Assembly (NCBI GenBank): GCA_964058805.1
Contig: CAXKVV010002149.1
Location: forward strand, 248,001-312,000
Length of the DNA stretch: 64,000 nucleotides
DNA from: Schoenoplectus triqueter
Taxonomy: Eukaryota > Streptophyta > Magnoliopsida > Poales > Cyperaceae
Reading direction: 5' to 3'
Under the pieces are notes generated by a model. That model ran no database searches, was not told the origin of the DNA, and saw nothing but the letters and a program-made list of their open reading frames with translations. Within the stretch, counting starts at the first letter, position 1; each line of letters starts with the position of its first letter. The translations under genes and the position numbers were made by a program. Of the stretch, positions 38,205-64,000 are shown one piece after another.

Positions 38205-38420
38205 ATGGCTAGTGATACCATGCTCTCCCTTCTCCAGTCCATGGAGAAATGGATGACAAAGATGTCATCCTTGTTACAGGAATCGATCCAAGCCCAATCC
38301 AATAAGTGGGCTGTGCAGAATGGGCCTAAACCTGGAGGACATCAATCTCAAGGTCAACAATGGAGGAAGAAAACGGATCTCAAAGCCGCAGTGCACAATT
38401 TGGATCCTGTGAAACAATGA
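38205..38420 (+). CDS. Unrecognised 71-residue frame at the left border of the array
   Basis: Encodes a hydrophilic Gln/Lys/Ser-rich peptide with a Met/Leu-rich N-terminal helix-like part (SLLQSMEKWMTKMSSLLQ). It ends with TGA at 38418-38420, and the same frame then stays open for 264 codons into the 58-bp array. I do not recognise the family; a retroelement gag fragment is possible. There is no promoter or splice evidence, and the surroundings do not favour a real gene. Confidence 0.2.
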   Translation: MASDTMLSLLQSMEKWMTKMSSLLQESIQAQSNKWAVQNGPKPGGHQSQGQQWRKKTDLKAAVHNLDPVKQ

Positions 38421-39370
38421 GTGGAGGAGACTAAGAGAGCATCGTCGGGTCCCGTTTTCGTGTTTTGCCTGCCCAGACTCGTTTTCGGCGGTACCGAGGG
38501 CCTCCGGTTCGGTTTTCGTGTTTTGCGCTCCCGGACTCGCTTTTGGTGGTATCGAGGGTTTCGGGTCTCGTTTTCATGTTTTGCGCGCCCGGACTCATTT
38601 CCGGCGGTACCGAGGGCGTCAGGTCCTGTTTTCATATTTTGCGCTCCCGGTCTCGTTTTCGGCGGTACCGAGAGCGTCGGGTCCCATTTTCGTGTTTTGA
38701 ACGAACAGACTCGTTTTGGCGGTACCGAGGGCGTCCGATCTCGTTTTCATGTTTTGCGCTTCCAAACACGTTTTCAGCGGTACCGAGGGCGTCGGGTCTC
38801 GTTTTTATGTTTTGCGCGCCCGGACTCGTTCTGGCGAAACCGAGGGCGTCGGTTCCCATTTTCATGTTTTGCACGCCGGGACTCCTTTTCGGCGGTACTG
38901 AGGGCGTCGGGTCCTGTTTTCATATTTTGCACTCCTGAACTCGTTTTCGGCGGTACCGAGGGCTTCGGGTCCCGTATTCATGCTTTGCGCGCCCGGACTT
39001 GTTGTCAGCGGTACCGAGGGAGTCGGGTCCCGTTTTCATGTTTTGCGCTCTCAGACTCGTTTTCGGCGGTACCGAGGTCGTCGGGTCTCGTTTTCATGTT
39101 TTACGCGCCCGGACTCATTTCCGGCGGTACAGAGAGAGTCGATTCCCGTTTTCAGGTTTTGCGCGCCCGGACTCATTTTCGGCGGTACCGGGGGCATCGG
39201 GACCCGTTTTCATGATTTGCGCGCCCGGACTCATTTCCGGCGGCACCGAGGGCGTCAGTTTCCGTTTTCATGTTTTATGTGCTCAGACTCCTTTTCAGCG
39301 GTACCGACGGCGTCGGGTCCCATTTTCATATTTTGCGCTCCCGGACTCGTTTTCGGCGGTACCGAGGGCT

Positions 39371-40913
39371 GCGAACGGGACCTAAATCCCTCGGTACCGC
39401 TGAAAACGAGTTCGGGAGTGCAAAAATATGAAAACGGGACCCGACACCCTCAGTACCGCCTAAAAGGAGCCCCGGCGCGCAAAATATGAAAACGGGAACT
39501 GACGCCCTCGGTACCGCTAGAAATGAAACCGGGCCGGCAAAATTAGAAGACGAGACCCGACGCCCTCGATACCGTCGAAAGCGATTCCGGGAGCGTAAAA
39601 TATGAAAACGGAACCCGACGACCTCGATACCGCCGAAAATGAGTCAGAGAGCGCAAAACATGAAAACGGGACCCGACGCACTCGATACCGCCGAAAACGT
39701 GTTCGGAAGCAAAAAAACATGAAAATGGGATCGCACACCCTCGGTACCGCCGAAAACGAATCCGGGCGCGCAAAACATGAAAATCGGACCCCACGCCCTC
39801 GGTACCGCCGAAAATGAGTCCGGGAGAGCAAAACATGAAAAACGGGACCCGACACCCTCGGTTCCGCCGAAAACGAGTCCGGGAGCGCAAAATATGAAAA
39901 CGGGACACGATGCCCTCGGTATCGTCGAAAATGAGTCTGGGGCGCGTAGAACATGAAAACGGGACCGGACGCCCTCGGTACCGTCGAAAATGAGTCCGGG
40001 CGCGCAAAACATGAAAACGGCACCCGACGTCCTCGGTACCGTCGAAAACGAGTCCGGGGGAGCAAAACATGAAAACGTGAATCGACGCCCTCTGTACCAT
40101 CGGAAACGAGTCCGGGCGCGTAAAACATGAAAACGGGAGCCGACGTCCTCGGTACGGCCGAAAACAGGTCCGGGCGCGCAAAACATAAAAACGGGAATCG
40201 AAGCCCTCGGTACCGCCGAACACGAGTCCTGGAGCGTAAAATATGAAAACGGGACCTGACGCCCTTGGAACCGCCGAAAAGGAGTCCGGGCGCGCAAAAC
40301 ATGAAAACGGGACCCGACGCCCTCGGTACCGCCGAAAATGAGTCTGGGCGCGCAAAGCACGAAAATGCGACCCGACGCCCTCGGTACCGCCGAAAATGAG
40401 TCTGGGCGCGCAAAACATGAAAACTGGACCCGAAGCCCTCGGTACCGTTGAAAACGAGTTCGGGCGTGCAAAACATGAAAACGGGACCCGACGCCCTAGG
40501 TACCGCCGAAAACGTGTCCGGGAGCGCAAATGATGAAAACGGCAGTCGTCGCCCTCGGTACCGCCGAAAACGAGTCCGGACGCACAAAAAAAGAAAACGG
40601 GACCTGATGCCCTCTGTACCGCCGAAATCGAGTCCGGGAGCGCAAAACATGAAAACGGTATAAGACGCCCTCGGTATCGCCGAAAATGAGTCCGGGCGCG
40701 CAAAACATGAAAACGGGACCCGACGCACTCGGCACAGCCGAAAATAAGTCCGGGAGCGCAAACATGAAAACTGGACCCGACGCCCTCGGTTCCGCCAAAA
40801 ATGAGTCCGGGCGCGCAAAACATGAAAACGGGTCCGGGAGCGCAAAATATGAAAACGGGACCCGACGCCCTCGGTACCGTCGGAAACGAGTCCGGGCGCA
40901 CAAAATTTGAAAA
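39371..40913 (-). repeat. Inverted block inside the 58-bp array
   Basis: From about 39371 to 40913 the units run on the opposite strand (CGGTACCGCCGAAAA, GCGCAAAACATGAAAAC), about 26-27 units. The left switch point falls inside a unit (CCGAGGGCT|GCGAACGGGACC) and the right one near ATTTGAAAA|TGTGTTTTGC. No foreign DNA lies at either junction. Confidence 0.95.
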
Positions 40914-41573
40914 TGTGTTTTGCACGCCCGGATTCCTTTTCGGCGGTAGCGAGGGCGTCAGGTCCCGTTTTCATGTTTTGCGCTCATGGACTCGTTTTCG
41001 GCGGTACCGAGGTTGTCGGGTCCCGTTTTCATATTTTGCGCTCCCGAAATCGCTTTCGGCGGTATCGAGGGCGTTGGTTCTTGTTTTCATGTTTTGCGCG
41101 CCCGGACTAGTTTCCGGCGATACAGAGGGCGTCGGTTCCCGTTTTCATGTTTTTTTTCAGCGGTACCGAGGGCGTCGGTTTCCATTTTCATGTTTTTCGC
41201 GCCCGGACTCCATTTCAGCGGTACCGAGGACGTCGTGTCCTGTTTTCATATTTTGCGCTCCTGGACTCGTTTTCGACGGTACCGAGGGCTTCGGGTCACA
41301 TTTTCATGTTTTGCGCACCCGGATTCCTTTTCGACGGTAACATGGGCGTCGGGTCCCGATTTCGTGTTTTGCGCGCCCAGACTCGTTTTTGGCAGTACCG
41401 AGGGCGTCGGGTCCCGTTTTCATGTTTTACACGCCCGAACTTGTTTGTGGCTGTGCCGAGGGCGTCGGGTCCCATATTCATGTTTTGCGCTCTCGGACTC
41501 ATTTTTGGCTGTGCATAGTGCGGCCGATCCCATTTTCATGTTTTGCGCTCCCGGAGTCATTTTCGGCGATACC

Positions 41574-44125
41574 GAGGGCGTCCGATCCCGTTTTCATGTT
41601 TTGCGCTCCCAGACACGCCTTTGGTGGTACCGAGGGCGTCAGGTCCCGTTTTGATGTTTTGCCTGCCCTAACTATTTTTTGGCGGTATCGAGGGCGTCCG
41701 GTCCCGTTTTCGTGTTTTGCGCGCCCTAACTCATTTTCGGCGGTACCGAGGGCGTGGGGTCCCGTTTTCATGTTTTGCGCTCCCGGACTCGATTTCGGCG
41801 GTACCGAGGGCGTCGGATCCCGTTTTCATGTTTTGCGCGCCCGGACTCGTTTTCGACGGTAGCGAGGTCGTCGGGTCCCGTTTTCATGTTTTGCGCGCCC
41901 CGACTCATTTTCGACTGTACTGAGGGCGTCAGGTCTCGTTTTCATGTTTTGCGCGCCCGGACTCATTTTCGGCAGTACCGAGGGCGTCGGGTCCGGTTTT
42001 CAAGTTTTGCGTGCCCGGACTCATTTTCGGCGGTATCGAGGGTGTACGATCCCGTTTTCATGTTTTGCGCTCCCGGACACGTTTTCGGCGGTACCGAGTT
42101 CGTCGGGTCCCGTTTTCATGTTTTGCGCTCCCGGACTCTTTTTCGGCTGTACCGAGGTCGTCGGGTCCCGTTTTCATATTTTGTGCTCCTGACTCGCTGA
42201 CGGCGGTATCGAGGGCGACGAGTCACGTTTTCTAATTTTGCCCGCCCGGATTCGTTTCTAAAGGTACCGAAGGCGTCGGTTCCTGTTTTCATGTTTTGCG
42301 CGCCAGAACTTCTTTTCGGCGGTACTGAGGGCGTCGGGTCCCGTTTTCATATTTTTGCACTCCCGAACTCGTTTTCAGCGGTACCAAGGGCTTCAGGTCC
42401 CGTTTTCATATTTTGCGCTCCCGGACTCGCTTTTGGCGGAATCGAGGGCGTGATTTCCCGTTTTCAAGTTTTGCGTGCCCAGACTCATTTTCGGCAGTAC
42501 CGAGGGCGTCAGGTCTCATTTTCATGATTTGCGCACCCGGACTCGTTTCCGGCAGTAACGTGGGCGTCGGTTTCCGTTTTCATGTTTTTCGCGCTCGGAC
42601 CCCATTTCAGCGGTACCGAGGGCGTCGAGTCCCGTTTTTATATTTTGCGCTTCCAGACTCGTTTTCGGCGGTACCGAGGTCTTCGGGTCCCGTTTTCATG
42701 TTTTGCGCGCCCAGACTCATTTTTGGCGGTACCGAGGGCATAGGGTCACGTTTTGATGTTTTGTGCTCCCTGACTCGTTTTCGGCGGTATCGAGGGCGTC
42801 GGGTACCGTTTTCATATTTTGCGCTCTCGGAATCGCTTTCGTCGGTATCGAGGGCGTCCGATCCCGTTTTCATGTTTTGCGCTCCCAGACACGCCTTTGG
42901 TGGTACCGAGGGCGTCAGGTCCCGTTTTGATGTTTTGCCTGCCCTAACTATTTTTTGGCGGTACCGAGGGCGTCCGGTCCCGTTTTCGTGTTTTGCGCGC
43001 CCTAACTCATTTTCGGCGGTACCGAGGGCGTGGGGTCCCGTTTTCATGTTTTGCGCTCCCGGACTCGATTTCGGCGGTACCGAGGGCGTCGGATCCCGTT
43101 TTCATGTTTTGCGCGCCCGGACTCGTTTTCGACGGTAGCGAGGTCGTCGGGTCCCGTTTTCATGTTTTGCGCGCCCTGACTCATTTTCGACTGTACTGAG
43201 GGCGTTAGGTCTCGTTTTCATGTTTTGCGCGCCCGGACTCATTTTCGGCAGTACCGAGGGCGTCGGGTCCGGTTTTCAAGTTTTGCGCGCCCGGACTCAT
43301 TTTCGGCGGTATCGAGGGTGTACGATCCCGTTTTCATGTTTTGCGCTCCCGGACACGTTTTCGGCGGTACCGAGTTCGTCGGGTCCCGTTTTCATGTTTT
43401 GCGCTCCCGGACTCTTTTTCGGCTGTACCGAGGTCGTCGGGTCCCGTTTTCATATTTTGTGCTCCTGACTCGCTGACGGCGGTATCGAGGGCGACGAGTC
43501 ACGTTTTCTAATTTTGCCCGCCCGGACTCGTTTCTAAAGGTACCGAAGGCGTCGGTTCCTGTTTTCATGTTTTGCGCGCCAGAACTTGTTTTCGGCGGTA
43601 TTGAGGGCGTCGGGTCCCGTTTTCATATTTTTGCACTCCCGAACTCGTTTTCAGCGGTACTAAGGGCTTCAGGTCCCGTTTTCATATTTTGCGCTCCCGG
43701 ACTCGCTTTTGGCGGAATCGAGGGCGTGATTTCCCGTTTTCAAGTTTTGCGTGCCCAGACTCATTTTCGGCAGTACCGAGAGCGTCGGGTCTCATTTTCA
43801 TGATTTGCGCACCCGGACTCGTTTCCGGCAGTAACGTGGGCGTCGGTTTCCGTTTTCATGTTTTTCGCGCTCGGACCCCATTTCAGCGGTACCGAGGGCG
43901 TCGAGTCCCGTTTTTATATTTTGCGCTTCCAGACTCGTTTTCGGCGGTACCGAGGTCTTCGGGTCCCGTTTTCATGTTTTGCGCGCCCAGACTCATTTTT
44001 GGCGGTACCGAGGGCATAGGGTCACGTTTTCATGTTTTGTGCTCCCTGACTCGTTTTCGGCGGTATCGAGGGCGTCGGGTACCGTTTTCATATTTTGCGC
44101 TCTCGGAATCGCTTTCGTCGGTATC
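41574..44125 (+). repeat. Two tandem copies of a 1,276-bp (22-unit) block
   Basis: Copy 1 is about 41574-42849, copy 2 about 42850-44125. The same ordered set of unit variants, including odd ones such as CTCGCTGACGGCGG and GTTTCTAAAGGTACC, recurs 1,276 bp apart (22 x 58). Only scattered single-base differences were seen. Confidence 0.9.
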
Positions 44126-47100
44126 GAGGGCGTCGGGTCCGGTTTTCATGTTTTGCGCCCCCGAACTCATTTCCGGCGGTACAGAGGGCGTCGGTTCCCG
44201 TTTTCATGTTTTGGGCGCCAAGACTCATTTTCGACGGTACCGAGGGCGTCGGGTCCCGTTTTTATAGTTTGCGCTCCCGGACTCATTTTCGGTAGGTCTG
44301 AGGGCGTTGGGACCCATTTTCATGATTTGCGCGCCCGGACTCGTTTCCGGAGGTACCGAGGGCGTCGATTCCCGTTTTCATGTTTTGCGCGCCCGGACTC
44401 CTTTTCACCGGCAACGAGGGCGTCGGGTCCCGTTTTCATATTTTGTGCTCCCGGACTCATTTTCGACGGTACCGAGCACTTCAGGTCCCGTTCTCATATT
44501 TGCGCGCCCGGGCTCTTTTTCGGCGGTACCGTGGGCGTCGGGTCCCGTTTTCATTTTTTGCGCTCCCGGACTCATTTTCGGCTGTGCCGGGGGCGTCGAA
44601 TCCCGTTTTCATGTTTTGCGCTCCCGGACTAGTTTTTGGCTGTGCCGAGTGCTGCCGATCCCGTTTTCATGTTTTGCGCTCCTAGAGTCATTTTCGGCGG
44701 TACCGAGGGCGTCCGATCCTGTTTTCATATTTTGCGCTCTCAGACACACTTTCGGAGTTACCGAGGGCGTCGGGTCCCGTTTTGATGTTCTACGATCCCG
44801 TACTCGCTTTCGGCGGTGCCGAGGTCGTTGGGTCCTTTTTCGTGTTTTGCGCTGCCGGACACGTTTTCGGCGGTACCGAGGGAATGGGGTCCCATTTTCA
44901 TGTTTTGCGCTCCCAGACTCGATTTCGACGGTACCGAGGTCGTCGGGTCCCGTTTTCATGTTTTGCGCGCCCAGACTCGATTCTGACGGTACCGAGGGCG
45001 TCGGGTCCCATTAACATGCTTTACGCGCCCGGACTCGTTTTCGACGGTACCGAGGGCGTCGGGTCCCGTTTTCACATTTTGCGCTCCCGGTCTCGTTTTC
45101 GGCGGTACCGAGGGCGTCGGTTCCCGTTTTCATGTTTTGCGCGGCCAGACTCGTTTTCGACGGTACCGAGGGCGTCGGGTCCCGTTTTCATGTTTTGCAC
45201 GCCCGGACTCGTTTTCGGCGGTACCGAGGGCGTCGGATCCCGTTTTCATGTTGTGCGAGCCCAGACTCGTTTTCGGCAGTACCGATCGCGTCGGGTCCGG
45301 TTTTCATGTTTTGCGCGCTCGGACTCGTTTTCGGCGGTACCGAGAGCGTTTGGTCCGGTTTTCATGTTTTGCGCGCCCGGACTCATTTTCGGCGGTACCG
45401 TGGGCGTCGGGTCCCGTTTTCATGTTTTGCGCTCCTTGACTCATTTTCGATGGTACCGAGGGCGTTGGGTCCTGTTTTCATATTTTGCGCTCCCCAACTC
45501 GTTTTCGAAAGGGCCAAGGGCGTCGGGTCCCGTTTTCATGATTCACGCCCCCGGACTCATTTTCCGGCGGTGCCGAGTGCGTCAGGTCCCATTTTCATGT
45601 TTTGCGCGCCCGGACTCCTTTTCGGCGGTACCGAGGGTGTCGGGTCCCGTTTTCATGATTTGCGCACTCGGACTTGTTTCTGGCGGCGTCGAGTGCGTCG
45701 GGTCCCGTTTTCATGTTTGGCGCGCCCGGACCCCTTTTCGACGGTACCGAGGACGTCGGGTCCCGTTTTCATATTTTGCGCTCCCGGACCCGTTTTCGGC
45801 GGTACCGATGGCTTTGGGTCCCGTTTTCCTGTTTTGCGCTCCCGGACTCATTTTCGGCGGAACCGAGGGCGTCGGGTCCCGTTTTCATGCTTTGCGCGCC
45901 CGAACTCGTTGTAGGCGGTACCGAGGGCGTCCGGTCCCGTTTTCGTGCTTTGCGCGCCCAGATTTATTTTCGGCGGTACCGAGGACGTCGGGTCCCACTT
46001 TCATATTTTGCGCTCCCGGAATATCTTTCGGCGGTATCGAGGGCGTCAGGTCCTGTTTTCTTGTTTTTGCGCGCCCGAACTCGTTTCCGAAGGTATCGAG
46101 GTCATTGGGTCCCGTTTTCATGTTTTGCGCTCCGGGTCACGTTTTCTGCGGTACGGAGGGCGTCCGGTATCGATTTCATGTTTTGCGCTCCCGGACTCGT
46201 TTTCGACGGTACCGAGGGCGCCGGGTCTCGTTTTCAAGTTTTGCGCGCCCGGACCCATTTTCGGCGGTACCGAGGGCGTCGGGTCCCGTTTTCATGTTTT
46301 GCGCGCCCGGACCCATTTTCGGCGGTACCGAGGTCGTCCGGTCCCATTTTCGTGTTTTACGCGCCCGGACTCATTTTCGGCGTTACCGAGGGCGTCGGGT
46401 CCCGTTTTCATGATTTGCGCGCCTGGACTCGTTTTCGACGGTACCTAGGGCGTCAGGTTCCGTTTTCATGTTTTGCGCACCAAGACTCGTTTTCGACGGT
46501 ACCGAGGGCGTCAGGTACAGTTTTCATGTTTTGCGCTCCCGGACTCGCTTTCGGCGGTATTGACCTCCCGGACTCGCTTTCGGCGGTACCGTTTTCATGT
46601 TTTGACCGCCCGGACAGGTTTCTAGCGGTACCCAGGGCGTCGGTTCCGATTTTCATGTTTTGCGCGCCGGGACTCCTTTTTGGCGGTACTGAGGGCGTCA
46701 GGTCCCATTTAAATATTTTTGCCCTCCAGAAGTCATTTTCAGCGGGACCAAGGGCTTCAGGTCCTGTTTTAATGTTTTGCGCGCCCGGACTCATTTTCGG
46801 CGGTACCAACGGCGTCGGGTCCTATTTTCATGTTTTGCGTCCCGGACTCATTTTCGGCGGTACCGAGGTCGTCGGGTCCTGTTTTCATATTTTGCGCTCC
46901 CGGACTCGCTTTCGGCGGTATCGAGGGCATCGGTTCCTGTTTTCATGTTTTGCGCGTCCGGACTCGTTTCCTACGGTACCGTGGGCGTCGGTTCCCGTTT
47001 TCATGATTTGCGCGCTCGGACTCGTTTCCGTCGGTACCGAGGTCGTGGGTTTCCATTTTCATGTTTTTGCGTCCGGACTCGTTTTCGGCTGTACCGAGGG

Positions 47101-50100
47101 CTTCGGGTCCCGCTTTCATGTTTTGCGCGCCCGGAATCATTTTTGGCGGTACCGAGGGCGTAGGGTCCCGTTTACATGTTTTGCGCTCCAGACTCGTCTT
47201 CGGCGGTATCGAGGGCGTCGGGTCCCGTTTTCATATTTTGCGCTCCCGGAATCACTTTCGGCGGTATCGAGGGCGTCGGTTCCTATTTTCATGTTTTGCG
47301 TGCCCGGACTCGTTTCCGGCGGTACAGAGGGCGTTGGTTCCCGTTTTCATGTTTTGCGCGCCCGGACTCATTTTCGGCGGTACCGAGGGCGTCGGGTCCC
47401 GTTTTCATATTTTGCACTCCCGGACCCGTTTTCAACGATACCGACGGCTTCGGCTCCCGTTTTCATGTTTTCGCGCCCAGACTCGTTTTCACGGGTATCG
47501 AGGGCGTCGGGTTCCGTTTTCATGTTTTGCGCTCCTGGACTCATTTTCGGCGGTACCGAGGGCGTCTGCTCCCGTTTTCATAATTTGCGCTCCCTGACTC
47601 GTTTTCGGCAATACATAGGCCGTCGGGTCTCGTTTTCTTGATTTGCTTGCCCGGACACCTTTTCGGCGGTACCGAGGGAGTCGGGTCCCGTTTTCATATT
47701 GTGCGCTCCCGGACCCGTTTTCGGCAGTACCGAGGGCTTTGGGTCCCATTTACATGTATTGCGCGCCCGGACTCATTTTCGGCGGTACTGAGGGCGTCGG
47801 GACCCGTTTTCATGTTTTGCGTTACTAGACTCATTTTCGGCTGTGCCGAGGGTCTCGGGTCCCGTTTTCATGTTTTGCGCGCCCGGACCCGTTTTCGGAT
47901 GTGCCGAGGGCGTCGGGTCCCATTTTCATGTTTTGCGCTCTTGGACTCGATTTCGGCGGTACCGAGCGCGTCGGGTTCGGTGTTCATGTTTTGCGAGCCC
48001 GGACTCGTATTCGGAGGTACCTAGCGCGTCGGGTCCGGTTTTCATGTTTTTCGCTCCCGGACACGTTTTCGGCATTACTGAGGGTTTCGGGTCCCGTTTT
48101 CATGTTTTGCGCGCTCCGTGACTAATTTTCGGCAGCACCGAGGGCGTTGGGTCCCGTTTTCATATTTTGCGCTCCTCGACTCATTTTCGGCTGGACCGAG
48201 GGCATCGGGTCCCGTTTTCATGATTTTCGCCCCCGGACTTGTTTCCGGCGGTGCCGAGTGCGTCGGCTCCCGTTTTCATGATTTGCGCGCCCGGGCTCCT
48301 TTTCGACGGTACCGACGGCGTCGGATCCCGTTTTCATATTTTGCGTTCCCGGACTCATTTTCCGCGGTACCGAGGGCGTCGGGTCCCGTTTTCTTGTTTT
48401 GCGCGCCCCGACTCGTTTTCGGCAGTACTGAGCGCGTCGGGTCCAGTTATCATGTTTTGCGCGCTCGGACTCGTTTTCGGCGGTACTGAGCGCGTTCGGG
48501 ACCAGTTTTCGTGTTTTGTTCGCCCGAAATCGTTTTCGGCGGTACCGAGCGGGTCAGATCCCATTTTCATGTTTTGCGCTCCCGCACCCATTTGCGGCAT
48601 TATTGAGGGCTTCGGGTCCCGTTTTCATGTTTTGCGCGTCCGGACTCATGTTCGGCGGTACCGTGGGCGTCGGGTCCAATTTTTGTGTTTTGCGCTCCTT
48701 GACTCATTTTCGGCATTACCATGGGCGTCGGGTCCCGTTTTCATGATTTGCGCTCCTTGACTTATTGAGGGCGTTGGGTCCCCTTTTCATATTTTGCGCT
48801 CGTCGACTCGTTTTCGGCAGTACCAAGGGCGGCGGGTCCCGTTTTCATGATTTGCGCCCCCGGAATCGTTTCCGGCGGTGCCGAGGGCGTCGGGTCCCAT
48901 TTTCAAATTTTACGCCCGGACTCGTTTCCGGCAGTACTGAGAGCGTCGGGTCCCGTTTTCAAGATTTGCGCGCTCGGACTCATTTCCGGAGTTACCGAGG
49001 GTGTCGGTTCCCGTTTTCATGTTTTGCGCACCCAGACTGCATTTCGGCGGTACCGAGGGCGTCGGGTCCGGTTTTCATATTTTTCGCTTCCGGATTCGTT
49101 TTCAACGGTACCGAGGGCTTCGGGTCCCTTTTTTTTCCACGCCTGTACCCGTTTTCGGCGGTACCGAGGGAGTCGGGTCCCGTTTTCATGTTTTGCGTGC
49201 CCAGACTCGTTTTCGGCCGTGCCGATAGCGTCGGGTCCCGTTTTCATGTTTTGCGCTCCCGGGCTCGGTTTTGGCTGTGCCGAGTGCGGCCGATCTCGTT
49301 TTCATGTTTTGCGCTCCCGGAGTCATTTTCGGCGGTACCGAGTGCGTCTGATCCGGTTTTCATATTTTGCGCTCTCAGACACGCTTTCGGCGGTACCGAG
49401 AGTGTCGGGTCCCGTTTTTGTGTTTTGCGCTGTCGGACTTCGGTGGTACTGAGGGCGTGGGTTCTCGTTTTCATGTTTTGTGCTCCTAGACTCGATTTCG
49501 GCGGTACCGAGGTCGTCGGGTCCTATTTTCATATTTTACGCTCCTGGTCTCGTTTTCGGCCATATAGAGGGCGTCGGGTCCCGTTTTCGTGTTTTGCACG
49601 AACGGACTCGTTTTCGGCGGTACCGTGGGCGTCCGATCCCGATTTCGTGTTTTGTGCTCCCTGACACATTTTCGGCGGTACCGAGGGCGTCGGTTCCCGT
49701 TTTCATGTTTTAAACGCCTAGACTCGTTTTTGACGGGACCGAGGGCATCGGTTCCCGTTTTCATATTTTGCGCTCTCGGACTCGTTTTCGGCGGTACCGA
49801 GAGCGTCAGGTCCCGTTTTCATATTTTGCGCTCTCGGACTCGTTTTCGGCGGTACCGAGAGCGTCAGGTCCCGTTTTCATATTTTGCGCTCCCGGACACG
49901 TTTTCGGCGGTACCGAGGGCTTTGGGTCCCATTTTCATGTTTTGCTCCCGGACTCATTTTCAACGGTACCGAGGGCGTCGGGTCCCGTTTTCATGTTTTG
50001 CGCGCCCGAACTCCATTTCAGCTGTTCCTGTTTTCATATTTTGCAATCCCCGACTCGTTTTTAGAAGTACCATGGGCGTCGGGTCCCGTTTTCATGTTTT

Positions 50101-50159
50101 AAGTGCCGATACTCGTTTTCGGCGATGCCGAGGGCGTCGGGTCCCGTTTTCATGTTTTC

Positions 50160-53100: not shown

Positions 53101-56100
53101 CTCCCGGAGTCATTTTCGGCGGTACCGAGGGCGTCCGATCCCGTTTTCATATTTTGCTCTCTCGGACACGCTTTCGGCGGTACCGAGGGTGTCGGGTCCC
53201 GTTTTGATGTTCTGCGCTTCCGAACTCGCTTTCGACGGTACCGAGTTCGTCGGGTCCCGTTTTCGTGTTTTGCCTGCCCGAACTCTTTTTTGGCGGTGCC
53301 GAGGGTGTCCGATCCCGTTTTTGTGTTTGGCGCTGCCGGACTCATTTTCGGTGGTACTGAGGGCTTGGGGTCCCGTTTTCATGTTTTGCGTTCCTAGACT
53401 CGATTTCGGCGGTACCGAGGGCGTGGGGTCCCATTTTCATATTTTGCGCTCCCGGTCTCGTTTTCGACGGTACCGAGATAGTCGGGTCCTATTTTCATAT
53501 TTTGCGCTCCCGGTCTCATTTTCGACCATACCGAGGGCGTCGGGTCCCGTTTTCGTGTTTTGCACGAACGGACTCGTTTTCGGCGGTACCGAGGGCGTCC
53601 GATCCCGATTTCGTGTCTTGTGCTCCCGGACACATTTACGGTGATACTGAGGGCGTCGGTTCCCGTTTTGATGTATTGCGCGCCCGAACTCGTTTTAGAC
53701 GGTGCCGAGGGCGTCGGGTCCAGTTTTCATGTTTTAAGCGCCCGAACTCGTTTTTGACGGTACCGAGGACGTCAGGTCCCATTTTCATATTATGCGCTCT
53801 CGGACTCGTTTTCATCGGTACCAGCGTCAGGTCCCGTTTTCATATTTTACGCTCCCGGACGAGTTTTCGACGGTACCGAGGGCGTCGGGTCCTGTTTTCA
53901 TGTTGTGCGCGCCCGGACTCATTTCCGGCGATACTGAGGGCGTCAGTTTTCGTTTTCATGTTTTGCGCGCCCGGACTCCATTTCAGCAGTTCCCGTTTTC
54001 ATATTTTGCGCTCCCCGACTCATTTTCGGCAGTACCGAGGGCGTCGGGTCTCGTTTTCATGTTTTGCGTGCCCAGACTCATTTTCGGTGGTGCCGAGGGC
54101 GTCGGGTCCCATTTTCATTTTTTGCGCTCCCGGGCTCGTTTTTGGTTGTGCCGAGTGCGACCGATCTCGTTTTCATGTTTTGCGCTCCCGGAGTCAGTTT
54201 CGGCGGTACCGAGGGCGTCCGATCCCGTTTTCATGTTTTGCACTCTCGGACACGTTTTCGGCGGTACCGAGGGTGTCGGGTCCCGTTTTGATGTTCTGCG
54301 CTTCCGGACTCGCTCTCAACGGTACCGTGGTCGTCGGGTCCCGTTTTCGTGTTTTGCCTGCCCGGACTCGTTTTTGGCGGTACCGAGGGCGTCCGGTCCT
54401 GTTTTTGTGTTTTACGCTGCCGGACTCATTTTCGGTGGTACCGAGGGCGTGGTGTCCCGTTTTCATGTTTTGCGCTCCTAGACTCGATTTCGGCGGTACC
54501 GGTACCGAGGTCGTCGGGTCCCGTTTTCATGTTTCGTGCGCCCGAACTCGTTTTCGGCGGTACCGAGGGCTTCGGGTCCCGTTTTCATATTCTGCGCTCC
54601 AGGACTCCTTTTCGGCGGTACTGAGGGCGTCGGTTATCGTTTTCATATTTTTGCGCTCCGGAACTCGTTTACAGCGGTACCGAGGGCTTCAGGTCCCGTT
54701 TTTATATTTTGCGCGCTAGGACTCCTTTTTGGCGTACCGAGGGCGTCGGGTCCCGTTTTCATGTTTTGCGCTCCCGGACTCATTTTCGGCGGTACCGAGG
54801 TCGTCGGGTACAATTTTCATATTTTGCGCTCCCGGACTCGCTTTCGACGGTATCGAGGGCATCGGTTCCTGTTTTCATGTTTTGCGCTCCCGGACTCATT
54901 TTCGGCGGTATCGAGGGCATCGGGTCCCGTTTTCATATTTTGCGCTGCCGAAATCGCTTTCGGCGGTATCGAGGGCGTCGGATCCTGTTTTCATGTTTTG
55001 CGCGCCCGGACTCGTTTCCGACGGTACCGAGGGCGTCGGTTTCCCGTTTTCATATTTTACGCTCCCGGACTAATTTTCGGCGGTACCGAGGGCGTAGGGT
55101 CCCTTTTTCATGTTTTGCGTGCCCGGACCCTTTTTTGGTGGTACCGAGGGTGTAGGGTCCCGTTTTCATGTTTTGCGCTCTCGGACTCATTTTCGACAGT
55201 ATCGAGGGCGTCGGGTCACGTTTCATATTTTGCGCTCTCGGAATCGCTTTCGGCGGTATCGAGGGCGTCGGGTCCTGTTTTCATATTTTGCGTGCCCGGA
55301 CTCGTTTCCGACGGTACAGAGGGCGTCGGTTCCCGTTTACATGTTTTGCTCGCCCAGACTCGATTTCGGCCATACCGAGGGCGTTGGGTCCCGTTTTCGT
55401 GTTTTGCCCGAACAGACTCATTTTCGGTGGTACCGAGGGAGTCCAATCCCGAATTCGTGTTTTGCGCTCCCGGACACATTTTCGGCGGTACCGATGGCGT
55501 CGGTTCCCGTTTTCATGTTTGGCGCGTCCGGACTCATTTCAGGCGGTACCGAGGGCGTCAGTTTTCGTTTTCAAGTTTTGCGCTCCCGGACTCCATTTCA
55601 ACAGTTCCCGTTTTCATGTTTTGCGCTCCCCGACTCGTTTTCGGCAGTACCGAGGGCGTCGGGTCCCGTTTTCATGTTTTGCGTGCCCAGACACATTTTC
55701 GGCGGTGCCGAGGGCGTCGGGTCCCGTTTTCATGTTTTGCGCTCCCGGGTTCATTTTTTGCTATGCCGAGTGCGGCCGATCTCGTTTTCATGTTTTGTGC
55801 TCCCGGAGTCTTTTTCGACGGTACCGAGGGCGTTCGATCCCGTTTTCATATTTTGCGCTCTCGGAAACGCTTTCGGCGGTACCGAGGGTGTCGGGTCCCG
55901 TTTTGATGTTCTGCGCTACCGGACTCGCTTTCGGCAGTACCGAGGTCGTCGGGTCCCGTTTTCATGTTTGGCGCGCTCGGACTCATTTTCGACGGTACCG
56001 AGGGCGTCTCGTCCCGTTTTCTTATTTTAAGCGCCCGGACTCATTTTCGACGGTACCGTGGGCGTCGGGTCCTGTTTTCATATTTTGCGCTCCCGGACTC

Positions 56101-59100
56101 GTTTTCGGCGGTACCGAGGGCTTCGGGCTGCATTTTCATGTTTTGCGCTCCCGGACTCATTTTCGACGGTACCGAGGGTGTCGGGTCCCGTTTTTATGTT
56201 TTTGCGCTACTTGACACATTTTCGGCGTTCCGAGGGCGTCGGGTCCCGTTTTCATATCGGCTGGTTTTCGGCAGTTCCGAGGTCGTGGGGTCCCGTTTTC
56301 ATGATTTGCGCGCCCGGATTCATTTCCGGCGGTGCCGGGTGCGTCGGGTCTCGTTTTAATGTTTTGCTCGCTCGGACTCATTTTCGGCGGTATCGAGGGC
56401 TTCGGGTCCTATTTTCATGTTTTGCGCGCCTAGACTCGTTTTCGGAGGTACCGAGGTCGTCGGGTATCGTTTTCATATTTTGCGCTCCCGGACTCGCTTT
56501 CGGCGGTATCGAGGGCGTCGGTTCCTGTTTTCATGTTTTGCGCGCCCGGACTCATTTCCGCAGTACCGAGGGTGTCGGGTCCCGTTTTCATGATTTGCTC
56601 GCCCGGTCTCGTTTCCGGCGATACCGAGGGAGTCTGTTTCTGTTTTCATGTTTTGCGCGCCAGGACTCCATTTTAGCGGTACCGAGGGTGTCGAATCCCG
56701 TTTTCATATTTTGCGCTCCCGGACTCATTTTCGGCGGTACCAAGTGCGTCGATTCCCGTTTTCATGTTTTGCTCGCCCGGACTCCTTTTCGGCGGTACCG
56801 AGGGCGTCGGGTCCGGTTTTCATATTTTTCGCTTCCGGGCTCAGTTTTGGCTGTGCCGAGTGCGGCCGATCTCGTTTTCATGTTTTACGCTCCCGGAGTA
56901 ATTTTCGGCGGTACCGAGGGCGTCCGATCCCGTTTTCATATTTTGCTCTCTCGGACACGCTTTCGGCGGTACCGAGGGTGTCGGGTCCCGTTTTGATGTT
57001 CTGCTCTACCGGACTCGCTTTCGGCGGTACCGAGGACATCGGGTCCCGTTTTCATGTTTGGCGCGCTCGGACTCATTTTCGACGGTACCGAGGGCGTCTC
57101 GTCCCGTTTTCTTGTTTTAAAAGCCTAGATTCATTTTCGACGGTACCGAGGGCGTCGGGTCCCGTTTTCATATTTTGCGCTCCCGGACTCGTTTTCGGCG
57201 GTACCGAGGGCTTCAGACTGCATTTTCATGTTTTGCGCTCCCGGACTCATTTTCGGCGGTACCGAGGGTGTCGGGTCCCGTTTTCATGTTTTTGAGCTAC
57301 TTGACACATTTTCGGCGTTCCGAGGGCGTCGGGTCCCGTTTTATATCGGCTGGTTTTCGGCAGTTCTGAGGTCGTGGGGTCCCGTTTTCATGATTTGCGC
57401 GCCCGGATTCATTTCCGGCGGTGCCGGGTGCGTCGGGTCCCGTTTTAATGTTTTGCTCGCTCATACTCATTTTCGTCGGTATCGAGGGCTTCGAGTCCTA
57501 TTTTCATGTTTTGCGCGCCTAGACTCGTTTTCGGCGGTACCGAGGTCGTCGGGTATCGTTTTCATATTTTGCGCTCCCGGACTCGCTTTCGGCGGTATGG
57601 AGGGCGTCGGTTCCTGTTTTCATGTTTTGCGCGCCCGGACTCATTTCCGCAGTAACGAGGGTGTCGGGTCTCGTTTTCATGATTTGCTCGCCCGGTCTCG
57701 TTTCCGGCGATACCGAGGGAGTCTGTTTCTGTTTTCATGTTTTGCGCGCCAGGACTCCATTTTAGCGGTACCGAGGGCGTCGGATCCCGTTTTCATATTT
57801 TGCGCTCCCGGACTCATTTTCGGCGGTACCGAGTGCGTCGATTCCCGTTTTCATGTTTTGCTCGCCCGGACTCCTTTTCGGCGGTACCGAGGGCGTCGGG
57901 TCCGGTTTTCATATTTTTCGCTTCCGGGCTCAGTTTTGGCTGTGCCGAGTACGGCCGATCTCGTTTTCATGTTTTACGCTCCCGGAGTCATTTTCGGCGG
58001 TACCGAGGGCGTCCGATCCCGTTTTCATATTTTGCTCTCTCGGACACGCTCTCGGACACGCTTTCGGTCGATTTCGGCGGTACCGAGGGTGTCCGATCCC
58101 GTTTTTGTGTTTTGCGCTGCCGGACTCATTTTCGGTGGTACTGAGGGCTTGGGGTCCCGTTTTCATGTTTTGCGTTCCTAGACTCGATTTCGGCGGTACC
58201 GAGGGCATGGGGTCCCGTTTTCATATTTTGCGCTCCCGGTCTCGTTTTCGGCGGTACCGAGGTAGTCGGGTCCCATTTTCATATTTTGCGCTCCCGGTCT
58301 CGTTTTCGGCCATACAGAGGGCGTCGGGTCCCATTTTCGTGTTTTGCACGAACGGACTCGTTTTCGGCGGTACCGAGGGCGTCCGATCCCGATTTCGTGT
58401 TTTGTGCTCCCGGACACATTTACGGCGGTACTGAGGGCGTCGGTTCCCGTTTTGATGTATTGCGCGCCCGAACTCGTTTTAGACGGTGCCGAGGGCGTCG
58501 GGTCCAGTTTTCATGTTTTAAGCGCCCGAACTCGTTTTTGACGGTACCGAGGACGTCGGGTCCCGTTTTCATATTATGCGCTCTCGGACTCGTTTTCGAC
58601 GGTACCGAGGGCGTCAGGTCCCGTTTTCATATTTTACGCTCCCGGACACGTTTTCGACGGTACCGAGGGCGTCGGGTCCTGTTTTCATGTTGTGCGCGCC
58701 CGGACTCATTTCCGGCGGTACCGAGGGCGTCAGTTTCGTTTTCATGTTTTGCGCGTCCGGACTCCATTTCAGCAGTTCCCGTTTTCATATTTTGCGCTCC
58801 CCGACTCGTTTTCGGCAGTACCGAGGGCGTCGGGTCTCGTTTTCATGTTTTGCGTGCCCAGACTCATTTTCGGCGGTGCCGAGGGCGTCGGGTCCCATTT
58901 TCATGTTTTGCGCTCCCAGGCTCGTTTTTGGCTGTGCCGAGTGCGGCCGATCTCGTTTTCATGTTTTACGCTCCCGGAGTCAGTTTCGGCGATACCGAGG
59001 GCGTCCGATCCCGTTTTCATGTTTTGCACTCTAGGACACGTTTTCGGCGGTACCGAGGGTGTCGGGTCCCGTTTTGATGTTCTGCACTTCCGGACTCACT
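50160..59100 (+). repeat. Higher-order repeats of ~3.79 kb and ~1.09 kb in the array
   Basis: Rare marker variants recur at fixed distances: the doubled GGTACC at 50704 and 54495 (3,791 bp), CGGCTGGTTTTCGGCAG at 52469, 56258 and 57347 (3,789 and 1,089 bp). The segment 53.4-54.3 kb recurs at about 58.2-59.1 kb (offset about 4,785 bp). So blocks of 19-65 units were duplicated repeatedly. Confidence 0.85.
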
Positions 59101-62100
59101 TTCAACGGTACTGAGTTCGTCGGGTCCCGTTTTCGTGTTTTGCCTGCCCGGTCTCATTTTTGGCGGTACCGAGGGCGTCCAATCCCGTTTTTGTTTTTTG
59201 CGCTGCCGGACTCATTTTCGATGGTACCGAGGGCGTGGGGTCCCGTTTTCATAGTTTGCGCTCCTAGACTCGATTTCGGCGGTACCGAGGTCGTCAGGTC
59301 CCGTTTTCATGTTTCGCGCGCCAGGACACGTTTTCGGCGGTACCGAGGGCTTTAGGTCCCATTTTTATGTTTTGCGCGCCCGGACTCATTTTCGGCGGTA
59401 CCGAGGGCGTCGGGTCCCGTTTTCATATTTTGCTCTCCCGAACTCATTTTCGGCGGTACCAAGATCGTCGGGCACCGTTTTCGTATTTTGCGCTCCCGGA
59501 CTCGCTTTCGGCGGTATCGAGGGCGTCGGTTCCCGTTTTCATGATTTGCGCGCCCGGTCTCGTTTCCGGCGGTACCGAGGGAGTCTATTTCCGTTTTCAT
59601 GTTTTGCGCGTCAGGACTCAATTTCAGCGGTACCGAGGGCGTAGGGTCTCGTTTTCATGTTTTGCGCTCCCGGACTCATTTTCGGCGGTATCGAGGGCGT
59701 CGGGTCCCGTTTTCATATTTTGCGCTCCCGAAATCGCTTTCGGCGGTATCGAGGGCGTCGGGTCCTGTTTTCATGTTTTGCACGCCCGGACTCGTTTCCG
59801 GCGGTACAGAGGGCGTCGGTTCCCATTTTCATGTTTTGCGCGCCCAGACTCATTTTCGACGGTACCGAGGGCGTCGGGTCCCGTTTTCATATTTTGCGCT
59901 CCCAGACTCATTTTCGGCAGTACCGAGAGCGTCAGGTCCCGTTTTCATGATTTGCGGGCCCGAACTCATTTTTGGAGGTACCGAGGGCGTCGGTTCCCAT
60001 TTTCCCCTTTTCGGCGGTATCGAGGGCGTCGGGCTCCGATTTTCCTATTTTTCGCTTCTGGACTCGTTATCGGCGGCACCGAGGGCGTCGGGTCCCGTTT
60101 TCATTTTTTACGTGACCAGACTCGTTTTCGACTGTGCCGAGGGCGTCAGGTCCCGTTTTCATGTTTTGCGCTACCGAGATCGGTTTTGGCTGTGCCGAGT
60201 GCGGCCGATCTCGTTTTCATGTTTTGCGCTCCCGGAGTCATTTTCGGCGGTACCGAGGGCGTCTGATCCCGTTTTCATATTTTGCGCTCTCGGACACGCT
60301 TTCGGCGGTACCGACGGTGTCGGGTCCCGTTTTGATGTTCTGCGCATCCGGACTCGCTTTTGACGGTACTGAGGGCGTGGGGTCCCGTTTTCGTGTTTTG
60401 CGCTCCTAGACTCGATTTCGGCGGTACCGAGGTCGTCGGGTCCCATTTTCATATTTTGCTCTCCCGGTCTCGTTTTCGGCCATACCGATGGCGTCTGGTC
60501 CCATTTTCGTGTTTTGCACGAACAGACTCGTTTTCGACGGTACCGAGGGCTTTTGATCCCGATTTCGTGTTTTGTGCTCCCGGACACATTTTCGGCGATA
60601 CCGAGGGCGTCGTTTCCCGTTTTCATGTTTTGCGCACCCGGACTCATTTTCGACGGTACCGAGGGCATCGGGTCCCGTTTTCAGGTTTTAAGCGCCCAGA
60701 CTCATTTTTGACGGTACCGAGGGCGTCGGGTCCCGTTTTCATATTTTGCGCTCTCGGACTCATTTTCGGCGGTACCGAGGGCGTCCGGTCACGTTTTCAT
60801 ATTTTGCTCTCCTGGACACGTTTTCGGCGGTATCGAGGGCTTCAGGTCCCATTTTCATGTTTTTTACGCCCGGACTCGTTTCGAGCGGAACCGAGGGCGT
60901 CGAGTCCCGTTTTCATGTTTTACGCGCCCGGACTCCATTTCAGCGGTTCCTGTTTTCATATTTTGCGCTCCCCGACTCGTTTTCGGCAGTACCGAGGGCG
61001 TCGGTTTCCGTTTTCATGTTTTGCGCGCCAGGACTACATTTCAATGGTACCGAGGGCGTCGGACCCCGTTTTCATATTTTACGCTCCCAGACTCATTTTC
61101 GGCGGTATCGAGGGTGTAGGGTACCTTTTTCATGTTTTGCGTACCCGGACCCTTTTTTGGCGGTACCGAGGGTGTAGGGTCCTGTTTTCATGTTTTGCGC
61201 TCTCGGACTCATTTTCGACGGTATCGAGGGCGTCGGGTCCCGTTTTCATATTTTGCGCTCTCGGAATCGCTTTCGGCGGTATCGAGAGCGTCAGGTCCTG
61301 TTTTCATGTTTTGCGCGCCCGGACTCGTTTCCAGCGGTACCAAGGGCGTCGGTTCCCGTTTTCATGTTTTGCGGGCCCAGACTCGATTTCGGCCATACCG
61401 AGGGCGTTGGGTCCCGTTTTCGTGTTTTGCACGAACAGACTCATTTTCGGTGGTACCGAGGGAGTCCGATCCCGAATTCGTGTTTTGCGCTCCCGGACAC
61501 ATTTTCGGCGGTACCGATGGCGTCGGTTCCCGTTTTCATGTTTGCCGCGCCCGGACTCGTTTCAGGCGTTACGGAGAGCGTCAGTTTTCGTTTTCATGTT
61601 TTGCGCGCCCGGACTCCATTTCAGCAATTCCCATTTTCGGCGGTACCGATGGCGTCGGTTCCCGTTTTCATGTTTGCCGCGCCCGGACTCGTTTCGAGCG
61701 GATCCGAGGGCGTCGAGTCCCGTTTTCATGTTTTACGCGCCCGGACTCCATTTCAGCGGTTCCTGTTTTCATATTTTGCGCTCCCCGACTCGTTTTCGAC
61801 AGTACCGAGGGCGTCGGGTCCCGTTTTCATGTTTTACGTGCCCAGACTCATTTTCGGCATTGCCGAGGGCGTCGGGTCCCGTTTTCATGTTTTGCGCTCC
61901 CGGGCTCGTTTCTGGCTGTGTCGAGTGCGGTCGATCTAGTTTTCATGTTTTGCGCTCCCGGAGTCATTTTCGGCGGTACCGAGGGCGTCCGATCCTGTTT
62001 CCATGTTTTGCGCTCCTAGACTTGATTTCGGCGGTAATGAGGTCGTCGGGTCCCATTTTCATATTTTCCGCGCTCGGTCTCGTTTCCGACCATACCGAGG

Positions 62101-64000
62101 GCGTCGGGTCCTGTTTTCGTGTTTTGCACGAGCGGACTCGTTTTCGGCGGAACCGAGGGGGTCCGATCCCGATTTCGTGTTTTGCGCTCCCTGACACATT
62201 TTCGGCGGTACCGAGGGCGTCGGTTCCCGTTTCATGTTTTGCGCGCCCGGACTCGTTTTCAACGGTTCCGAGGGTGTCGGGTCCCGTTTTCATGTTTTAA
62301 GCGCCCGGACTCATTTTTGAAGATAACGAGGGCGTCAGGTCCCGTTTTCATATTTTGCGCTCTCGGACACGTTTTCGGCGGTTCCGAGGGCTTCGGGTCC
62401 CATTTTCATGTTTTGCGCTCACAGACACGTTATCGGCTGTACCGAGGGCTTCGGGTCCCATTTTCATGTTTTGCACGCCCAAACTCATTTACGGCGGTAC
62501 TGAGGGCTTCGGTTTCCGTTTTCATGTTTTGCGTGCTCGGACTCCATTTCAGCGGTTCCCGTTTTCATGTTTTGCGCTCCCGGACACATTTTCGGCGGTA
62601 CCGAGGGCTTCGGGTCCCGTTTTAATGTTTTGCGCGCCCGGACTCATTTTCAACGATAATGAGGGCGGCGGGTCCCGTATTCATATTTTGCGCGCCCGAA
62701 CTCATTTTCGGCGGTACCGAGGTCGTCGGGTCCGGTTTTCATGTTTTGCGAGCCCGGACTAATTTTCGGCGGTACCGAGGGCGTCGGTTCCCGTTTTTAT
62801 ATTTTGCGCTCCCTGACTCATTTTCGGCCGTACCGAGGGCGTCGGATCTCGTTTTCATGATTTGCGCGCCTGGACTCGTTTCCAACGGTGCCGCGTGCGT
62901 CGGGTCCCGTTTTCATATTTAGCACGCCCGGACTCCTTTTCGGCGGTACCGAGGGCGTCAGGTCCGATTTTCATGTTTTGCGCGCCCGGACCCGTTTTCG
63001 GCGGTACCGAGGGCGTCGGGTCCCGTTTTCTTGTTTTGCGTGCTCGGACTCATTTTCGGCTGTGCCGAGGGCGTCGGGTCCCGTTTTCATATTTTGCGCT
63101 CTAGGGCTCGTTTTTGCTGTGTCGAGTGCGGCCGATCCAGTTTTCATATTTTGCGCTCCAGGCACGTTTTCAGCGGTACGGAGGGTTTCGGGTCTCGATT
63201 TGATGTTTTGCGCGCCCGGATTTATTTTCGGCGGTATCGAGGGCGTCGGGTCCTATTTTCATGTTTTGTGCTCCCGGGCACATTTTCAGCGGTATGGAGG
63301 GTTTCGGGCCTCGATTTCATGTTTTGCGCACCGGGATTCGTTTTCGACGGTACCCAGGGCGTCGGGTCCCGTTTTCATGTTTTGCGCGCCCGGACTCATT
63401 TTCGACGGTACCGAGGGCGTCGGGTCCCGTTTTCATGTTTTGGGCGCCAAGACTCATTTTCGGCGGTACCGAGGGGGTCGGGTCTTGTTTTCATGTTTTG
63501 CGCTCTCGGAGTCATTTTCGGTGGTACCTTGGGCGTCAGGTCCCGCTTTTATGTTTTGCGCTCTCGGACTCATTTACGGCGATGCCGAGTGCGTCGGGTC
63601 CCGTTTTCATGTTTTGCTCCGGTTTTCCTATTTTTCGCTTCCTGACTCATTTTCGACGGTACCGAGTGCTTCGGGTCCCGTTTTTTTTTCCGCGCCCGTA
63701 CCCGTTTTCGGCAGTACCAAGGGCGTCGGGTCCCGTTTTCTTGTTTTGGGCGCTCGGACTCGTTTTCGACGGTACCGAGGGCGTCGGGTCCAGTTTTCAA
63801 GTTTTGCGCGCCCCGACACGTTTTCCGCGGTACCGAGGGTATCGGGTCCCGTTATCATGTTTTGCGCTCTCGGGCTCGTTTTTGGCCGTGCCGAGTGCGT
63901 CGGGTCCCGTTTTCATGTTTTCCGCTCCCGGACATGTTTTCATGTTTTGCACACCGGGACTCATTTTCGGCGGAACCGAGGGTGTCGGCTCCCGTTTTCA

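Follow-up and report, generated by a model that had tools for sequence, protein, structure and literature searches.

Few plant holocentromeres are known by their DNA sequence, and how centromeres are marked in sedges that lack the satellite Tyba is an open question. Tyba, the holocentromeric satellite of Rhynchospora, is an AT-rich repeat of 172 bp (PMC5049389), the CENH3 domains of R. breviuscula have a median length of 19,156 bp (PMC10954556), and the centromeric retrotransposon CRRh co-localises with Tyba (PMC6070107). Chionographis japonica carries two holocentromere satellites of mixed orientation, Chio1 and Chio2, with units of 23 and 28 bp (PMC10264360), and the satellites CR1-CR3 of Carex cristatella and C. 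scoparia have units of 31, 29 and 30 bp (PMC9526063). Furthermore, Rhynchospora has species-specific block satellites that appear as clusters on mitotic chromosomes (Ribeiro et al. 2017, as cited in PMC7533669 and PMC5615363).

Comparison with described satellites

The repeat described here is a GC-rich satellite with a unit of 58 bp, which resembles each of these systems in some respects. Like Tyba, it forms blocks on a scale of about 20 kb in a sedge (PMC10954556 and PMC11538461) and is accompanied by a retrotransposon of centromeric type, but its unit is short and GC-rich as against the 172-bp AT-rich unit of Tyba (PMC5049389). Both Tyba primers given there were without a match in the assembly at up to 3 mismatches, in a search run without a positive-control genome, and with its 58-bp unit, a unit GC of 0.56-0.57 and no primer match the family was rejected as a form of Tyba. 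The missing primer match, together with the block-like satellites of Tyba-less Rhynchospora described in the excerpt of PMC11538461, is counted against a centromeric reading.

Chio1 and Chio2 are similar in having a short monomer, an 8-bp dyad, mixed forward and reverse arrays and a large share of the genome, but Chio units measure 0.24-4.46 Mb (PMC10264360, in excerpt) as against tens of kb for the two 58-bp blocks read, and they belong to another plant family; moreover, the 8-bp palindrome of the 58-bp unit is not specially conserved and the 58-bp array is known from sequence alone. CR1-CR3 are likewise short-period satellites spread along sedge chromosomes (PMC9526063, in excerpt), but the period is 58 here and the unit has no significant internal repeat, its best self-match being equalled by 1,374 of 5,000 shuffles, and the two are set apart by description and not by sequence. 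An internal dimer structure of the unit was rejected on the same comparison with shuffles. The block satellites of Ribeiro et al. 2017 are comparable as species-specific satellites, a likeness that lies in their description as cited and not in unit length or sequence.

Literature searches on plant centromere, holocentric and Cyperaceae satellites gave no description of a 58-bp repeat among the matches listed, and the repeat may already have been described. Two mentions of "58 bp" in the plant satellite literature were discarded, one referring to a 5S rDNA flank and the other being part of a table number, a third listed paper dealt with a beetle, and a search of Rfam gave no match reaching gathering scores.

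Structure of the 58-bp array

The window, by which we mean the whole 64,000-nucleotide stretch of DNA analysed, is occupied from 38443 to 64000 by a tandem array for which TRF reports a period of 58 bp (lag-58 autocorrelation 0.72), and the array ends only beyond the window, at C2062:316465, giving a total length of 30,023 bp. The original prediction of some 25.6 kb of uninterrupted repeats was right in that the tandem array is real, but it fell short of the full length and passed over two strand flips near the left end. A first forward stretch (38443..39369, 17 units including partial ones) is followed, after a switch at 39370..39373, by an inverted stretch on the reverse strand (39374..40913, 28 units including partial ones), and a second switch at 40914..40915 leads back to the main forward stretch, which fills 40916..64000 of the window and comprises 480 units over its whole length; in the joined sequence a single TRF row covers 41154-68432. 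The left junction is formed by a short non-repeat stretch (38200..38442, forward strand), which looks retroelement-like by eye. Farther along the same contig there is a second 58-bp array (array 2) with a length of more than 26 kb.

The array was also expected to be GC-rich and dense in CpG beside AT-richer DNA, and this is borne out by a GC content per 2-kb window of 0.55-0.58 in the array against 0.27-0.50 across the remaining window, and by a CpG observed/expected ratio of 1.55 against 0.70. Being long and arranged head to tail, with a short unit in high copy number and non-coding, the array is satellite DNA. Its units have a mean identity to the consensus of 0.84-0.88; compared pairwise, those of the two long stretches average 0.79 and 0.82, with neighbours no closer than other units, and the 829 full-length units comprise 721 distinct sequences. 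In addition, 26 runs of 6-43 units share 92.8-99.1% identity, again with no neighbour effect. The blocks probably grow by duplication of multi-unit segments rather than by the copying of single units.

A KpnI-site palindrome had been predicted to occur in most units, possibly as a binding site repeated hundreds of times. The first notion does not hold and the second is not supported, since CGGTACCG is found exact in only 188 of the 447 units of the first array that start within the window (42%) and ranks 39th in conservation among the 58 8-mer positions of the unit, and since perfect palindromes at this position stay near independence, with 323 observed against 280 expected (n=829), a slight excess. 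Over both arrays the exact sequence occurs in 352 of 991 units, and the shorter GGTACC is present in 218/447 units of the window and 395/991 overall.

Abundance and the adjoining 183-bp satellite

Exact copies of GGTACCGAGGGCGTC number 10,494 + 7,525 in the assembly, spread over many contigs, as against 0 for the reversed control, and calibration with a 15-mer puts the 58-bp family at about 6-7 Mb of the 82-Mb assembly, a share of about 7.5-8.6%. Twenty sampled contigs measure 24-70 kb, and the sequence is also found at interior places of the larger contigs C22, C2057 and C2079. In the window an ABCB1 transporter gene (24435..30868, reverse strand, exons by tblastn) lies 7.6 kb from the array; its spliced protein is 95% identical to that of Rhynchospora pubera over 100% of its length, the next named match being Typha latifolia at 84%, and this protein places the host among the sedges (Cyperaceae), close to Rhynchospora. 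A subtelomere or knob, both suggested by the original prediction, has no support so far, because the array is close to this gene and because of the interior sites on the three larger contigs.

Past the first 58-bp array the contig carries an AT-rich satellite with a unit of 183 bp and a higher-order period of 3217 bp, for which the ungapped identity at lag 3217 is 99.5% in one stretch and 66% in the other, and this satellite has a 58-bp array to either side of it (58-183-58). The 3217-bp spacing recurs on C1411 and C461, with 99-100% matches to a 600-base query, other higher-order periods of the 183-bp satellite are found on C8, C22, C272, C1334, C1613 and C1770, and on C4 and C8 words of the two satellites lie less than 2 kb apart on the same strand. 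The 183-bp satellite makes up about 1.5 Mb of the assembly, as estimated from 3,253 copies of a 15-mer that occurs at 2.23 per kb. A length of 183 bp is usual for a centromeric monomer, and this length and the strong local higher-order structure are counted against the centromeric reading of the 58-bp blocks. Dyads with 6-base arms are more frequent in the 183-bp arrays than in shuffles (24.5 vs 17.4-18.0 per kb) and less frequent in the 58-bp arrays (2.0-2.2 vs 3.1-3.2 per kb), but the dyad count is a weak sign, since the ordinary left flank also exceeds its shuffles (18.0 vs 9.0 per kb).

A CRM-like retrotransposon and its insertion sites

Array 2 is broken by a Ty3/gypsy element of 5,672 bp, behind which the array resumes, and a perfect GCGTG target duplication lies within a 58-bp unit. 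The LTR of the element has the ends TGATGG...TATCA and is accompanied by the primer site TGGTATCAGAGC, presumably that of tRNA-Met, and the pol frame, which is separated from gag by a single in-frame stop, has its last 36 codons in the 3' LTR. In excerpts of PMC3059260, the CRM clade is described as having LTR ends of the form TGATG...[T/C]ATCA and a tRNA-Met primer site, and its group A as having a polyprotein frame that extends into the 3' LTR; the element agrees with all of these and matches a CRM group A-like retrotransposon by its sequence features. Group A is further marked by a CR motif at the C-terminus of the integrase, for which the block SFQPGEND after DLSPY in the element is a possible candidate; about half of 20 chosen relatives have a short block similar to it.

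A search with the LTR yielded 117 candidates, 40 of which were scored and the 30 best-scoring loci fetched, and after merging of shared flanks 15 distinct insertions were left. A 58-bp array is the immediate site of ten of these, and the 183-bp satellite of none; a further 2 are inside copies of their own kind and 3 elsewhere. Among the last three, one (C566) has a 58-bp array at a distance of 0.4 kb, and another (C512) has, 1.4 kb off, a stretch of 82 bp that matches the 183-bp satellite. Given the 58-bp share of 7.5-8.6%, the probability of at least 10 such insertions among 15 is 1e-8 to 4e-8, although the sampling may favour 58-bp sites, the LTR used as query having itself been taken from a 58-bp array and reading having been confined to the 30 loci with the best scores. 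A control family with giant LTRs is distributed differently, its 14 distinct outer flanks being 58-bp repeat in 3 cases, 183-bp satellite in 4, its own kind in 1 and other sequence in 6 (Fisher, 0.018 for 58-bp vs rest and 0.015 for 58-bp vs 183-bp). This family is enriched in the 183-bp satellite (4/14 vs about 1.8%, P 9e-5), and retention in non-genic DNA could therefore also bias the sites. The 58-bp arrays host CRM-A-like retrotransposons, which are a usual companion rather than a strict criterion of a (holo)centromere satellite.

Proposed function of the 58-bp blocks

Since most of the sampled CRM group-A-like copies lie inside 58-bp blocks, we infer that these blocks belong to centromere-associated chromatin, and on balance we somewhat favour the notion that they are a centromere-associated satellite of dispersed centromere units, constituting either the putative CENH3-carrying part or its immediate flank. 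The array is one block of a high-copy, non-coding, GC-rich 58-bp satellite family in a sedge, and such blocks can adjoin the 183-bp higher-order satellite; on this reading they would constitute putative centromeric chromatin in a presumed holocentric arrangement. The holocentromere of Chionographis japonica, with its short monomer and mixed orientation, and the CENH3 domains of R. breviuscula serve as published precedents. A block next to a centromere and a species-specific repeat had been proposed in advance, and both of these, like plant satellite DNA, fit the sedge host, the adjoining higher-order satellite and a CRM-type family whose sampled copies are mostly within the 58-bp repeat. A more specific and decidedly more tentative proposal is that the 58-bp satellite itself is a candidate for the repeat that CENH3 binds in a sedge in which Tyba was not detected, and would as such be a new kind of plant holocentromere DNA, with units of tens of kb that draw CRM elements and join the 183-bp satellite in compound 58-183-58 modules. 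If CRM-type elements do report centromeric chromatin, the 58-bp repeat is a concrete probe for the centromeres of Tyba-less sedges and the 58-183-58 arrangement offers a model of a compound centromere unit that can be tested; if the repeat is heterochromatin only, it is still an abundant marker satellite.

It is possible, though we would not expect it, that within each centromere unit CENH3 is instead bound by the 183-bp satellite, the 58-bp arrays being GC-rich pericentric or spacer DNA. The locus-specific higher-order periods on several contigs, the 58-bp arrays on both its sides in C2062 and the proximity of the two repeats on C4 and C8 are in agreement with this, but the 183-bp satellite is the scarcer of the two in the assembly and received none of the 15 CRM-like insertions directly, as against 10 in 58-bp arrays. 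Confidence in this alternative overlaps with that in the centromere-associated satellite, since it is one branch of the latter. Rather unlikely, in our judgement, is an ordinary block satellite of non-centromeric type, with the family forming a GC-rich heterochromatic band in which retrotransposons merely survive. Variable bands that are CMA+ (GC-rich) do occur in Rhynchospora karyotypes, and in R. globosa and R. ciliata satellites outside the centromere were identified as heterochromatic blocks (PMC7533669), while Tyba-less lineages have diverse satellites with block-like patterns (excerpt of PMC11538461). Moreover, C-to-T changes reach 0.101 at CHG and 0.080 at CG sites as against 0.056 at CHH sites, an excess of the sort expected of methylated DNA. 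Plain survival does not however predict that two retrotransposon families of the same assembly differ in their preference, as they do here, albeit in small numbers.

Two further explanations can be largely dismissed. Each of the three forward frames contains long open stretches, the longest of 741 aa, which might suggest a gene for a tandem-repeat protein, but the forward consensus is simply without stops, 58 is not divisible by 3, and stop triplets are no rarer than under an independent column shuffle (314 vs 315.9 +- 10.5 in 829 units); a coding reading was rejected on this ground and is exceedingly improbable. Repeat arrays are furthermore difficult to assemble, and the array might be a false expansion of a short repeat. 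Such an artefact is very improbable, since 721/829 full-length units are distinct, the family is present in many contigs, and its arrays are broken at different places by different insertions with different target duplications.

Extent and abundance of the 58-bp satellite

The 58-bp tandem array found in the window (array 1) is real, running from position 38443 to 64000 of the window (C2062:248001-312000) and on to about position 316465 of contig CAXKVV010002149.1 (C2062), but with a total of 30,023 bp it is longer than the 25.6 kb of the original prediction, and rather than being uninterrupted it switches strand twice, at 39370-39373 and at 40914-40915. Its description as GC-rich and CpG-dense holds, since the GC content is 0.55-0.58 in 2-kb windows and the CpG observed/expected ratio is 1.55 as compared with 0.70 in window 1-38440. 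Runs of a TCGGG-type 5-bp repeat are found about 0.7-1 kb to its left (window 37414-37711).

In the assembly (82.09 Mb in 2,086 contigs) the word GGTACCGAGGGCGTC occurs 10,494 + 7,525 times, and since its density is 2.93 copies per kb in array 1 and 2.56 in a second 58-bp array on the same contig (array 2), the family would amount to 6.1-7.0 Mb, a share of 7.5-8.6%, provided that the remaining arrays resemble these two. An independent sample of 1,200 bases from both ends of every hundredth contig (20 contigs) showed the 58-bp repeat in 4 of the 40 ends, belonging to two contigs, and in 3,627 of 48,000 bases, contig ends being possibly repeat-rich. These shares refer to the assembly only, which may be partial, since the sampled contigs are just 24-70 kb long.

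Divergence and growth of the arrays

Wrap-around alignment delimited 525 units in array 1 (17 + 28 + 480) and 466 in array 2 up to its first interruption, and 829 of these 991 are full length without insertions, 721 of them being distinct. Units are on average 0.84-0.88 identical to the consensus, the mean pairwise identity being 0.79 in the main stretch of array 1 and 0.82 in array 2, and in both of these neighbouring units are no more alike than others. Above this pairwise background stand 6 and 20 high-identity runs (92.8 to 99.1%) of 6 to 43 units, and the arrays thus expand by duplication of many-unit segments. C-to-T changes, computed without two bimodal positions, are most frequent in CHG (0.101), followed by CG (0.080) and CHH (0.056), a mild methylation-like footprint.

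A palindrome had been proposed to occur in most units and to be a possible repeated binding site, but exact CGGTACCG is present in only 188 and GGTACC in 218 of the 447 window units. Ranked by conservation, its 8-mer comes 39th among 58 windows, and perfect 8-bp palindromes occupy that place in 323 of 829 units as against 280 expected under column independence. We see no conserved binding site in it. A coding function was likewise rejected, since open frames of up to 741 aa arise because the consensus itself is stop-free, and the units contain 314 stop triplets against 315.9 ± 10.5 after column shuffling.

The neighbourhood on C2062

Array 1 is followed by about 0.6 kb of transposon-like sequence (C2062:316465-317070), an AT-rich satellite with a 183-bp unit (GC 0.26) and then array 2, which is broken by a 5,672-bp Ty3/gypsy element and resumes to at least C2062:419000; the main direction is common to array 1 and the two portions of array 2. 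A 246-bp tandem duplication at window 9927-10423 shows about 77% similarity to the transposon-like sequence behind array 1. The 183-bp family, about 1.5 Mb by a similar copy-density calibration and found in none of the 40 sampled contig ends, has on C2062 a higher-order period of 3217 bp with 99.5% ungapped identity in one stretch, while periods elsewhere are 2923 bp (C8), 3599 bp (C22 and C272), 3271 bp (C1334), 3247 bp (C1613) and 3612 bp (C1770), as local homogenisation would give. Exact words of both satellites lie less than 2 kb apart on the same strand in contigs C8 and C4. C15, and C20 as far as listed, yielded the 183-bp word and no exact 58-bp word.

Inserted in the 183-bp satellite is a 23.2-kb LTR retrotransposon (C2062:331142-354324; loci L006-L009) with 7,035-bp terminal repeats that are 99.9% identical and a target duplication ATGAC. 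The listed matches to its LTR end include 40 at full length, and a relative of this end is found at window 4919-5203. Two near-identical 3-kb stretches of contig C60 (135376-138385 and 354336-357345; L003 and L004, also L035), 219 kb apart and each with a mini-array (about 8.4 units of 58 bp) adjoining LTR-end-like sequence, represent either a duplication or an assembly repeat.

Insertion sites of CRM-like elements

The element in array 2 has CRM group A features, with LTR ends TGATGG...TATCA, primer site TGGTATCAGAGC, a pol frame terminating 36 codons within the 3' LTR, a single in-frame stop between gag and pol, and a target duplication GCGTG located in a 58-bp unit. The Pfam chromodomain PF00385 is found in 5 of 120 relatives among the protein-search matches listed, and a short block like the element's SFQPGEND after DLSPY in about half of 20 chosen relatives.

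Searching with the LTR gave 117 candidates, 40 of which were scored and 30 fetched, the other 10 scored places being left out. L065, with its LTR wholly within an element, was excluded, and copies with shared flanks were merged into 15 distinct insertions. Merging joined the C1581 copy to the one at 335 kb on C2079, whose flanks are identical to its own on both sides, and on C2057 the copy at 1,374 kb to that at 762 kb, the two agreeing at 99% in one flank and differing in the other. Ten of the 15 lie directly in 58-bp arrays (C2062; C2079 at 93, 335-346 and 400 kb; C2057 at 708, 752 and 762-767 kb; C50; C1958; C408), five of these with perfect 5-bp duplications, each different, one with an imperfect duplication and four with a single end seen. 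Two lie within copies of their own family (one at 336 kb in the stretch C2079:335233-346132, the other at C2067:112156-116929), although the former, with four LTRs in a row, may be a rearrangement rather than nesting. The remaining three are elsewhere (C512, C379 and C566), that on C566 being 0.4 kb from a 58-bp array and that on C512 1.4 kb from a stretch of 82 bp matching the 183-bp satellite.

At a 7.5-8.6% share the probability of at least 10 of 15 is 1e-8 to 4e-8, sampling bias not being allowed for. As a control we used the 40 listed places of the giant-LTR end, from the family of the 23.2-kb element (38 fetched flanks and two known on C2062), dropping flanks that start with the element's own primer site, including L119 with an altered site, and merging two shared pairs. 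Classed by eye, the resulting 14 distinct outer flanks were 58-bp in three cases, 183-bp in four, own kind in one and other in six (Fisher, CRM-like versus control: 0.018 for 58-bp versus the rest, 0.015 for 58-bp versus 183-bp).

A possible centromeric location

CRM-like copies are mostly found in 58-bp arrays, which suggests that the arrays themselves are centromeric or lie next to centromeric chromatin; in PMC3059260 all tested CRM group A elements are centromeric. Holocentric chromosomes whose repeat blocks measure about 20 kb are known in Cyperaceae, with a median CENH3 domain of 19,156 bp in Rhynchospora breviuscula (PMC10954556), and Chionographis has holocentromere satellites with short units and mixed orientation (PMC10264360). 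That the 58-bp repeat itself binds CENH3 is a tentative proposal, which we consider rather doubtful. It is also conceivable, with similar doubt, that the 58-bp repeat flanks a 183-bp centromere unit, since the adjoining 183-bp satellite has local higher-order structure, but none of the 15 distinct CRM-like insertions has a direct flank in that satellite. Plain heterochromatin is a slightly less likely reading given the difference from the control insertions, but it should be mentioned that the LTR query itself came from a 58-bp array, which may have biased the sampling, and that Rhynchospora lineages without Tyba, the 172-bp holocentromeric satellite of that genus, have block-like satellites according to PMC11538461.

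The 58-bp family is satellite DNA and as such of an already known kind. No described 58-bp family was found in the literature searched, but since this covers the Rhynchospora satellite papers in part, a previous description is possible. Neither of two Tyba primers, taken from PMC5049389, matched the assembly at up to three mismatches in a search without a Tyba-positive control genome. Rhynchospora, which belongs to Cyperaceae, is also the source of the closest match to the ABCB1 gene at window 24435-30868 (minus strand), whose protein, assembled by manual splicing of tblastn exons, shares 95% identity at 100% coverage with that of Rhynchospora pubera (the representative of a cluster of 11 sequences), the next match being Typha latifolia at 84%.
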